Below, piece by piece: positions 31,864 to 56,629 of a stretch of 64,000 bases of DNA. The DNA comes from Sphingobium xenophagum NBRC 107872. GTDB lineage: Bacteria; Pseudomonadota; Alphaproteobacteria; Sphingomonadales; Sphingomonadaceae. The DNA lies in contig NZ_BARE01000007.1 of the NCBI RefSeq assembly GCF_000367345.1, positions 62,001 to 126,000 on the forward strand. Reading direction: 5' to 3'. The notes beneath the pieces were generated by a model that saw only the letters and a list, made by a program, of their open reading frames with translations, was not told the DNA's origin and did not search any database. The position numbers and the translations under genes were made by a program. Each line of letters opens with the position of its first letter. The stretch's first letter is position 1.

Positions 31864-31940
31864 GCACCCGTAGCTCAGCTGGATAGAGCATCAGACTACG
31901 AATCTGAGGGTCGGGCGTTCGAATCGCTCCGGGTGCACCA
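31864..31940 (+). tRNA. tRNA-Arg (anticodon ACG), copy 1
   Basis: 77 nt including encoded CCA. The acceptor GCACCCG pairs with CGGGTGC, the anticodon stem TCAGA/TCTGA holds loop CTACGAA (anticodon ACG), and the D and T arms are canonical. Identical in sequence to the next copy 56 nt downstream. Confidence 0.97.
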
Positions 31941-31996: not shown

Positions 31997-32073
31997 GCAC
32001 CCGTAGCTCAGCTGGATAGAGCATCAGACTACGAATCTGAGGGTCGGGCGTTCGAATCGCTCCGGGTGCACCA
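31997..32073 (+). tRNA. tRNA-Arg (anticodon ACG), copy 2
   Basis: 77 nt, identical to the copy at 31864 over the whole gene; the 133-nt start-to-start distance and the unrelated spacer suggest a recent or gene-converted tandem duplication. The wobble A34 would be deaminated by TadA to read CGN codons, heavily used in this genome. Confidence 0.97.
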
Positions 32074-54383: not shown

Positions 54384-54857
54384 TCAGGCCGCGTCGCGAT
54401 CCTTCGCGGTGATTTCCACAAGCTGACCGCCATTGATGGCAATCTTCTTGGGCTTCATCGCTTCGGGTACTTCGCGCAACAGGTCGATCACCAGCAGGCC
54501 ATCGGCCAGGTCCGCCTTTTCCACGCGCACGAAATCGGCCAGTTCGAACCGCCGCTCGAAGCTGCGATTGGCGATGCCGACATGCAGGAATTTGGACCGG
54601 TCGGCTGGTGAGCCTTCATCCTTGCGACCGACCACCTGAAGCAGATTCTGCTGCGCGGTGATGTCGATCTCTTCAGGACGGAAGCCTGCAACGGCCAGCG
54701 TCACGCGATAGCGATCTTCCGACAGCCGTTCGATGTTGAAGGGCGGATAATTGTCGCCCTGGCTTAAACGCGCATTATTTTCGATCAGGTCGAACAAGCG
54801 GTCGAACCCAACGGTCGAGCGGCGATAGGGGGTCAGGTCAAAGTTACGCATCGTCAT
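54384..54857 (-). CDS. Small heat shock protein, Hsp20 family
   Basis: 157 residues. An N-terminal arm (RNFDLTPYRRSTVGFDRLFDL), then an alpha-crystallin domain from about 35 to 125 (YRVTLAVAGFRPEEIDITAQ, and the closing signature ADGLLVIDL with its dimer-groove contacts) and a short C-terminal tail. An ATP-independent holdase resembling IbpA or HspA. Preceded by a sigma-32-type promoter and a ROSE-like leader, so induction by heat should be both transcriptional and translational. Confidence 0.94.
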   Translation of the reverse strand: MTMRNFDLTPYRRSTVGFDRLFDLIENNARLSQGDNYPPFNIERLSEDRYRVTLAVAGFRPEEIDITAQQNLLQVVGRKDEGSPADRSKFLHVGIANRSFERRFELADFVRVEKADLADGLLVIDLLREVPEAMKPKKIAINGGQLVEITAKDRDAA

Positions 54858-54942
54858 AATCTCCCAAAGAGCAAAATGAACCTGCCGAACCCGAAACCGG
54901 CGTTCGGCAATACCATGTCTGGCCCCATGCGGCGGCCAGACG
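54858..54942 (-). ncRNA. ROSE-like RNA thermometer in the hsp20 leader
   Basis: The predicted leader of about 85 nt folds into a first perfect hairpin (GTCTGGCC/GGCCAGAC, 54917-54941), a second (TGCCGAAC/GTTCGGCA, 54883-54909) and a third in which TTTTGCTC (54869-54876) faces the ribosome binding site GGGAG (54861-54865) across a 3-nt turn. A U(U/C)GCU stretch opposite the Shine-Dalgarno after one or more stable hairpins is the ROSE layout known from rhizobial and other proteobacterial small heat shock genes. Translation should be blocked at low temperature. Confidence 0.7.
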
Positions 54943-54979: not shown

Positions 54980-55064
54980 ATGTTGCAGCCAGCATTTCGA
55001 GCGCCAGCGCGTGCGGGGTTGGACAGTTTGTCCTATCGTCAGGGAACAACAATTGGCGCAGACG

Positions 55065-55102
55065 AAAAAGCGCCCGGATCGCGGTTCACGATCCGGGCGC
55101 TT
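55065..55102 (-). terminator. Orphan terminator upstream of hsp20
   Basis: A perfect 14-bp stem (AAGCGCCCGGATCG and CGATCCGGGCGCTT) with a 7-nt loop, followed by TTTTTC on the minus strand. No protein-coding gene ends here: lolC diverges at 55379 and hsp20 begins downstream. It must therefore end a short untranslated transcript or an antisense from the lolC side. Confidence 0.85.
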
Positions 55103-55240
55103 AATGGACGATTGCTCGTCTCCCCCTTGGTCTGCCTCGACCGCTTCTCAGCCCCCTAAGCTCAAAGCGGGATGCAGTATCCCTGAACCACGGCCTTTTA
55201 CCTGTGCTTCGACTATCTTGCTATGACTGCTGAGGGGCGG
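55065..55240 (-). ncRNA. Candidate small RNA ending at the orphan terminator
   Basis: The 276 nt between the terminator and lolC (55103-55378) carry no plausible ORF on either strand. On the minus strand several stable helices can be read: GGGAT-ACTGC-ATCCC and CCGCTT/AAGCGG. The 5' end is unknown; the given limit of about 55240 is a guess from a weak promoter-like GTGACT/TAGCAA pair. It does not match the signature sequences of tmRNA, RNase P RNA or SRP RNA; a divergent 6S-type RNA remains possible. Confidence 0.4.
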
Positions 55241-55378
55241 AGTCACGGGCAAAATCGGCTGCGTGTGATTTTGCGCCTATGCCTGTGGCTGTGATGCAAC
55301 AATCTGGCAATGCTTGCCGTTGTGCCATGCTATGCCTAGACGATCAGCCTGTTCCTTCGCAAAGGCCGACCGCGCCAC

Positions 55379-56629
55379 ATGATTCTATCCCGTTACGAAC
55401 GCATGATCGCCAAACGCTACCTGTTGCCGGGGAAGGGGGAGGGCTTCATCTTCCTCGTCGCCGGGATCAGCCTGGTCGCCGTCATGCTTGGTGTCGCTGC
55501 GCTCATCATCGTCATGAGCGTCATGAACGGCTTTCGCGCCGAACTGTTCGACAAGATTGTCGGCCTCAACGGCCATGCCGTGGTGCAAGGCTATGGCGGC
55601 CGTCTGCCTGACTGGCGTGCCGTTCTGGCGGAAGCCAAGGCGACACCGGGCGTCACCAGCGCGACGCCGATGATCGAACAGCCCTTGCTGGCTACCTTCA
55701 ACGGACGGGCGGAAGCCGTGTTGGTACGGGGCATGACCGTGGCCGACATCCGCGCCAACAAGACGCTGAAGGGCAAGGTGATCGCTGGCAGTCTGGACAG
55801 TCTGACGCCCAATAGCGGCAAGATCGGCATCGGATCGCGCCTGGCCGAAAATATGGGTATTCAGCTGGGCGACAGTCTGACCGTGATCAACCCGGCGGGC
55901 CGCTCCACCCCGTTCGGCACGGTGCCGCGGCAGGTCGCCTATCAGGTCGCCGCCATTTTCGAGGTCGGCATCTATGATTATGACAAGGCCTTCATCGTCA
56001 TGCCGATGGAGGATGCGCAGACCTTGCTCCTGCTGGGCGATGTCGTTGGCATGATCGAGGTTGAAACGGTCAATCCCGACAAGGTCGGCCAGATATTGGA
56101 ACCGCTGGCAGGCAAGGTTGCAGGCCGCGCCGTCATCACCGACTGGCGGCAGATGAACGCATCGCTGTTCGAGGCGCTGGCCGTCGAGCGGGTCGCGATG
56201 TTCGTCGTGCTATCGATCATCGTGCTGGTCGCGGTATTCAATATCTTGTCCTCGCTGATCATGCTGGTGCGCGCCAAGACGCGCGACATCGCGATTTTGC
56301 GCACGATGGGGGCGAGCCGGGCCGGGTTGGTGCGCATATTCATGACGGTGGGCGTCACCATCGGCACGCTGGGCATGGTGGCGGGGCTGATCCTTGGCTT
56401 TACCTTCCTTTTCTTCCGCCAGAATGTCGTCAACGCGATCCAGTTCGTGACAGGACAAAATCTCTGGGATCCCTCGATCCGCTTCCTGACCGAATTGCCC
56501 TCGCAAGCCGATCCCGTAGAGATCGCCACGATCTGCATCATGGCCTTGCTGTTCAGCTTCCTTGCGACGCTCTATCCGGCCTTTAAGGCCGCCAATACCG
56601 ATCCTGTGCAGGTTCTCCGCTATGAATGA
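55379..56629 (+). CDS. lolC: Lipoprotein-releasing ABC transporter permease (LolC/LolE type)
   Basis: 416 residues with four membrane helices: one near the N-terminus ([32 protein letters not shown]) and three at the C-terminus, with a large periplasmic domain between ([18 protein letters not shown]). The final [17 protein letters not shown] is the MacB/FtsX-family end. It extracts lipoproteins from the inner membrane and hands them to LolA. A single permease with one ATPase gene suggests an LolF-like homodimer. Overlaps lolD by 8 nt. Confidence 0.93.

Follow-up and report, generated by a model that had tools for sequence, protein, structure and literature searches.

A candidate family of trans-acting small RNAs in Sphingomonadaceae, encoded between hsp20 and lolC in Sphingobium xenophagum

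Sphingomonads are widespread degraders and plant associates, and in the parts of the literature that we surveyed SuhB is the only worked-out small RNA (sRNA) of these bacteria. The 64,000-nt stretch of the Sphingobium xenophagum NBRC 107872 genome analyzed here (the window) carries a strong terminator between hsp20 and lolC. An earlier note, made from the sequence alone, had marked positions 55065-55378 as an unannotated stand-alone sRNA. The features recognized at the locus are collected in Table 1.

Table 1. Features of the sRNA locus and related genes; positions refer to the window, except for the Hfq reading frame.
Feature	Position	Strand	Basis
Small RNA gene, ~147 nt	55065..55210	minus	conserved core and sharp loss of conservation past the T run; R1/R2 matches 55062-55208
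Intrinsic terminator, 14-bp stem + T5	55065..55102	minus	inverted repeat; 99.1% of A4 cells paired, both-side changes in 8/13 pairs
Hairpin P4, GACGA-GCAA-UCGUC, GNRA-type loop	55107..55120	minus	98.8% of A4 cells paired; 5/5 pairs with at least one both-side change
Conserved G-rich linker AAGGGGGA	55121..55128	minus	conserved A1 columns
Variable rod: P2 CUGC/GCAG, P3 CCGCUU/AAGCGG, inner hairpin with loop UUAGGGG	55132..55177	minus	covariation
Conserved segment GGUUCAGGGA; relatives have GGUUCRGGGA; modelled as unpaired	55180..55189	minus	invariant or near-invariant A1 columns
5' hairpin P1, CACAGGU-AAAA-GGCCGUG	55189..55206	minus	95.0% of A4 cells paired; both-side changes in 2/6 pairs
-10-like element CATAGC of the RNA promoter	55220..55225	minus	its T/A in 73/74 and 72/74 loci upstream of lolC
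-35-like element GTGACT, consensus nTGACA	55241..55246	minus	70/70 A4 loci have TGAC 36-40 nt before the core
Dyad site TTGTTGCATCACAGCCACAG, 18-bp core TGTKGC-N8-CACA	55283..55302	.	spacing to TGAC and recurrence in the family
CTTGCC, candidate -35 of the divergent lolC promoter	55313..55318	plus	columns conserved in 70-74 of 74 loci
lolC (FtsX + MacB_PCD domains), divergent neighbour	55379..56629	plus	domain search; the name lolC given in the earlier note fits
hsp20 (HSP20 domain), ~210 nt below the terminator, same strand as the RNA	54384..54857	minus	domain search
Two-domain Hfq reading frame of the window genome	G000:C105:5548-5970		

The perfect minus-strand terminator described previously was confirmed: its arms (55068-55081 and 55089-55102) are 100% complementary over 14 bp, stand 7 nt apart and are followed by TTTTT on the minus strand. 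In a pattern scan it appeared, with 16 pairs, as the longest stem among four terminator-like sites in 3 kb, shuffled sequences giving 2.4 sites on average. When 74 loci were aligned upstream of lolC, the identity per 10-nt bin amounted to 0.53-0.97 from position 55208 to the terminator stem, fell to 0.17-0.36 past the T run, and was patchy (0.36-0.88) on the promoter side of the RNA. The fall behind the T run indicates that the conserved unit and the terminator end at the same place. The 5' end of the RNA most probably lies at 55208-55210 and its 3' end within the T run, near 55063-55065, while 55211-55378 would be the promoter region of the RNA, common to it and the divergent lolC. The originally marked stretch was therefore right in its RNA part and too long in its first ~170 nt (in minus-strand reading), which belong to this promoter region. 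The two further stable hairpins mentioned in the earlier note both fall inside the RNA (55107-55120 and the rod at 55132-55177); a third predicted one (~55249-55274) lies upstream of the proposed start and does not form part of the RNA. The statement that the 276 nt at 55103-55378 hold no ORF has to be narrowed, as mechanical ORFs of at least 30 aa do cross this interval, none of them being conserved.

The fold z-score of the whole marked stretch was -5.07; without the last 44 nt it weakened to -0.5 in the window copy and averaged -1.1 over 88 homologues, 17 of which scored below -2 (18 of the 106 rows of alignment A3, being fragments, antisense or weak rows, had been left out before this test). 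The score is thus carried by the terminator, and it is conservation, covariation and the promoter elements, rather than folding energy, that speak for a gene.

The covariation analysis was based on several alignments. With A1, a diverse MAFFT alignment of 49 of the 72 distinct trimmed cores, RNAalifold found P1 and the terminator and missed the modelled rod and P4, so that a hand-made structure of 38 pairs was used on alignment A2, which comprises 32 of the 49 A1 rows aligned by sequence alone. In A2, 97.7% of the cells were paired, with both-side changes in 11 pairs (63 cells); none of 500 shuffles scored as high as observed, except in further pair types (24/500), and in the controls with slid partners pairing reached only 28.7-45.1%. 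Alignment A4, composed of 70 sequences picked among matches to the covariance model R1 with E <= 1e-8 and fitted to this model, and hence biased towards it, gave 94.0% paired cells and both-side changes in 28 of 37 pairs (332 cells), with 0 of 500 shuffles reaching this level. These compensatory changes support the predicted 5' hairpin, variable rod, tetraloop hairpin and terminator. The most telling part of the predicted structure is the rod, whose sequence changes while its pairing stays: each helix keeps pairing in 79-88% of the A4 cells, and every pair displays both-side changes. One of the P1 pairs is lost in 15 of the 70 A4 rows, and single-sequence folds pair part of the GGUUCAGGGA segment in many rows. 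Conservation and covariation across sphingomonads, proposed in the earlier note as a check, were both found, in A2 and A4 as well as in the covariance-model matches within the family.

By BLAST with 55065-55378, 86 of 94 host-genus genomes and 12 of 199 genomes of the family were found to carry a homologue; one of the 8 host-genus genomes left without a BLAST match was later recovered by model R1, which matched in 126 of the 397 family genomes searched, representing 33 of 96 genera. Model R2, for which 70 sequences of greater diversity were used, detected the RNA at E <= 0.001 in 125 of 199 sampled Sphingomonadaceae genomes belonging to 72 of 96 genera (78 genomes at E <= 1e-6), the other 74 giving no match. 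Even among the 21 R2 matches at E from 1e-4 to 1e-3, 20 sit at one of two recurrent loci (see below). Outside the family the picture was different: in the class sample R2 matched in only 8 of 289 genomes, 4 of them outside Sphingomonadaceae, with E no better than 2.5e-5 and with none of proS, lolC, hisI or comF in the 1.5-kb flanks, and in the order sample, whose make-up by family is not specified, all 40 matches of R1 among 196 genomes fell within Sphingomonadaceae. A DNA pattern of the two conserved segments was found in at least 120 stretches of named genomes; among the 80 listed, 76 are titled Sphingomonas, Sphingobium, Novosphingobium, Parasphingopyxis, Sphingosinithalassobacter or their order or family, and 4 come from unassigned bacterial or proteobacterial MAGs. 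The occurrence in 125 of 199 family genomes, as against 4 weak outside matches in 289 genomes of the class, supports the suggestion, made in the earlier note, that the RNA is sphingomonad-specific. Being conserved over most sampled genera and furnished with a candidate promoter, a candidate operator and a covariance model, the RNA could be annotated in many genomes at once.

The best matches of the 125 genomes fall mostly into two genomic settings: 72 at locus A, divergent from proS (44) or lolC (28), and 44 at locus B, beside comF and in 43 cases also divergent from hisI; one further match is at thiF and 8 are elsewhere. Domain searches on example neighbours fit these names (tRNA-synt_2b + HGTP_anticodon, FtsX + MacB_PCD, PRA-CH, DZR_2 + Pribosyltran, ThiF). 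At host-genus loci where lolC was seen, it is divergent from the RNA. Two of the 8 other matches look genuine, one with lolC ~756 nt away (G144) and one at a contig end (G107), both carrying the upstream dyad described below. The remaining 6 are without the dyad; one of them (G022, E 1.1e-9, on a short contig) retains GGTTCGGGGA, and the other five are probably false. Five genomes gave a second match, in no case a second copy: three of these matches are at unrelated positions (L399-L401), and the other two cover only a fragment with the terminator. R2 is biased towards locus A and could therefore overlook a second copy that has diverged.

Model R3 was built from locus-B copies only (25 sequences, A5; 9 of the 44 copies did not fit the regular expression, and 25 of the other 35 were used). 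At E <= 0.001 it recognized the RNA in 46 of the 50 sources that have a copy outside locus B, the best E being 1.6e-11 and that of the window copy 4.3e-4; at the remaining four (L003, L045, L059, L060) the match was missing or weaker. These scores, although helped by the common terminator shape, indicate on sequence grounds that the locus-B copies are related to the window RNA and do not match it by chance. The lower range of R3 is not specific, since it also scores two loci outside the family (L163 at 4.2e-5 and L165 at 1.8e-3). At L163, which belongs to another alphaproteobacterial family, R2 gave a weak match (2.5e-5) at the same coordinates as R3 (~1501-1663); this could be a remote homologue or a common terminator shape. 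Beside the hsp20 gene of the window, a ROSE-like RNA thermometer was noticed at 54846-54939 on the minus strand (ROSE_3, 29.9 bits, E 0.00039; ROSE, 30 bits, E 0.017; both below gathering), in a plausible position before the gene.

Upstream of the RNA start, conserved elements recur in a fixed arrangement. A TAGC/TATC-type match to the -10-like element was found at 52 of 70 diverse loci, and the spacing, together with known consensus sequences, suggests that TGAC and CATAGC are the -35 and -10 elements of a sigma-70-type promoter. The dyad stands 55-57 bp before TGAC at 69 of 70 loci, exactly 56 bp in 55 of these, the remaining locus having no TGTK at this spacing; the strict expression TGTKGC-N8-CACA fits at 66 of 70. 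In a looser form it occurred within 190 nt upstream in 116 of the 125 family matches, compared with 57 of 3960 control windows drawn at random from these loci. The dyad accompanies the RNA also where neither lolC nor proS is present (L114, L124, L132) and at 43 of 44 locus-B copies; inspection of locus B by eye did not reveal the constant TGAC upstream of the RNA. As CTTGCC, the candidate -35 element of lolC, lies 10 bp beyond the dyad, the latter may serve both directions. Taken together, the conserved promoter elements, the terminator, the covarying structure and the inconstancy of the downstream gene bear out the assignment of a stand-alone sRNA between hsp20 and lolC, and the reading of the locus as a stand-alone small RNA gene holds as far as sequence can tell. 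The RNA also agrees with trans-encoded sRNAs in possessing, at the level of sequence elements, its own promoter and terminator in an intergenic site, and in having neither a conserved ORF nor a constant downstream gene.

The Rfam scan suggested in the earlier note (Rfam 15) gave no gathering-score match over the RNA, in the surrounding region of the window or in 40 homologous loci. Matches below gathering to ncS01, microRNA models and sau-6072 were rejected, being far below the threshold and mostly placed on the terminator stem. The stated absence of tmRNA, RNase P and SRP signatures was likewise upheld, by Rfam and, for tmRNA, by ARAGORN. Comparison with described systems was made at the level of published descriptions. 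RusT and ChvR of Caulobacter are envelope-linked alphaproteobacterial sRNAs that both act on TonB-dependent receptors, and RusT lies beside lolA (PMC11005374, PMC9731502); the homologues of RusT are reported at the lolA-side locus in Caulobacteraceae, which, according to the parts of these papers available to us, sets it apart from the present RNA. GsrN of Caulobacter, as far as its description was accessible, is an intergenic regulatory sRNA too; it has a sigma-EcfG promoter, BLASTn hits limited to Caulobacteraceae and a C-rich loop, as opposed to the G-rich conserved segments here (PMC5869019). SuhB of Sphingopyxis granuli TFA is described as a trans-encoded sphingomonad sRNA of 61 nt vs. 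~147 nt here (PMC6563040). Small RNAs have also been found in Zymomonas mobilis, a relative of sphingomonads (PMC7064620, PMC6970203); the text seen of PMC6970203 names neither lolC nor prolyl-tRNA synthetase. In the portions of the literature consulted (including PMC6970203, PMC9275681, PMC6163740, PMC6563040, PMC5869019, PMC9731502 and PMC11005374) no sphingomonad RNA is mentioned at proS, lolC, hisI or comF, and an earlier listing in supplements, such as the dRNA-seq tables of Sphingopyxis granuli, is possible. Judged by its sequence features, the RNA is a new family of a known kind, namely bacterial regulatory RNA.

Several other identities have to be weighed against a free-standing regulatory RNA. 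The possibility of a divergent 6S RNA, raised in the earlier note, was not supported: the RNA resembles 6S RNA (RF00013) as a stand-alone structured molecule of similar length, but it has no 6S match in sequence or model, even at E <= 10, whereas the same genome has an Rfam 6S match of 157 nt at another locus (C107:62104-62260, 47.8 bits at a gathering score of 46.4); with the 40 homologous loci also silent in Rfam at gathering, this identity is highly improbable. A messenger of a very small protein seems just as improbable. A start-like codon does recur in GGCCNNGGTTC (GTG in 49, ATG in 14 and TTG in 2 of 70 homologues), but it belongs to helix P1, is lost in 5 homologues and opens frames of anything from 4 to 48 codons; the length of the longest closed sense ORF within the RNA varies between 0 and 42 codons, and the conserved short ORF that the earlier note named as grounds for rejecting an sRNA was looked for in these 70 homologues and not found. 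A cis-acting leader or attenuator of the same-strand downstream gene, which here would be hsp20, is very unlikely as well and was already disfavoured by the arrangement of neighbours. The gene is close, on the same strand and a frequent neighbour in the host genus, but not a constant one: the flanks of six host-genus loci (L031, L033, L034, L059, L060, L062) showed no hsp20, it was found at only 10 of the 66 loci L096-L161, comF is convergent at locus B, and hsp20 has a ROSE-like leader of its own, at scores below gathering.

We consider it rather probable that the locus encodes a free-standing regulatory RNA of sphingomonads that acts in trans. A transcription factor at the dyad, ~75-90 bp upstream of the start, would set the synthesis of the RNA, which would exert its effect through the purine segments left exposed in it (GGUUCRGGGA, ARGGGGG and the G-rich loop), most likely by base pairing to C/U-rich sites on mRNAs or other sRNAs, in which the tandem Hfq protein may take part. 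Hfq was present in all 21 genomes searched, and in 13 of 13 host-genus genomes two Hfq domains are joined in one ORF of ~165-195 aa. The longest T run in the last 12 nt of the RNA is mostly short (2-6, with 2-4 in 63 of 70 homologues), which would be a poor fit for a typical Hfq-dependent sRNA. A target search in the own genome, with 12-mers complementary to the two conserved segments at up to 1 mismatch, yielded no target: the matches numbered 10 vs. 9 in the control and 34 vs. 8, and of the 38 examined outside the RNA gene two precede a called ORF start by no more than 60 nt and most are inside or antisense to ORFs, so that the surplus is not located at start codons. Sequestration of a protein, in the manner of CsrB/RsmZ or 6S RNA, is a tentative alternative, in which repeated GGG-containing segments would titrate an RNA-binding protein other than CsrA. 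CsrA is the protein known to bind such GGG-type motifs, and the RNA shares with CsrB/RsmZ several G-rich segments in one molecule; here they occupy loops or linkers, in a conserved scaffold with freely varying rod stems, the locus-B copies bear the same kind of repeats (GGUUCAGGGGG, AUGAGGGAU, GGGGGG), and the U tail is weak. However, CsrA had no match in 61 genomes, so that a CsrA decoy was rejected, and no other partner is indicated. Given the absence of CsrA from these genomes, the presence of Hfq, the short T runs and the target search without a target, regulation by base pairing was ranked first and protein titration second. If the G-rich segments do titrate a protein, this would amount to a Csr-like logic in bacteria without CsrA.

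The dyad offers a further clue to the role of the proposed trans-acting RNA. In 13 host-genus genomes its strict pattern gave 41 sites, 12 of them being the RNA promoter, vs. 16 for the reversed control. In 10 of these genomes a gene for a DUF3576 lipoprotein (PF12100) is likewise preceded by the dyad, in the form CTGTTGC-N8-CACAG (L369, L371, L372, L374, L379, L383, L387, L388, L389 and L392, at about position 1501), with leuS behind the gene in 7 of the 10; the gene starts ~130-170 nt behind the dyad where this was measured (L372, L379, L387, L392), and the gene on the opposite side is usually divergent and without a Pfam match. In two genomes (L375, L397) the dyad precedes the same TonB-dependent receptor, and several remaining sites are inside genes or have no evident meaning. 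The sharing of the dyad with a lipoprotein gene and the site beside proS-lolC suggest, as a guess, a role of the RNA in envelope or growth control. The sharing of the dyad should also make the regulator findable. Two candidate regulators were rejected by the motifs given in the parts of the sources at hand, since neither the Rhodobacter CenR motif TGA-N8-TGA (PMC9275681) nor the Caulobacter ChvI motif TTGC-N3-GCAA (PMC9731502) fits.

A more far-reaching reading, which we regard as speculative and rather unlikely in its entirety, would make the RNA a nearly family-wide multi-site decoy of Sphingomonadaceae: its G-rich segments would imitate purine tracts of the Shine-Dalgarno type and sequester either an RNA-binding protein or the C-rich loops present in other sRNAs of Alphaproteobacteria, the regulator acting at the dyad TGTTGC-N8-CACA would also control the DUF3576 lipoprotein operon, and the gene would have moved as a promoter-plus-RNA unit between proS/lolC, hisI/comF and thiF with the dyad kept.

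Elsewhere in the window, two tRNA-Arg(acg) genes with equal scores were observed in tandem at 31864-31940 and 31997-32073.
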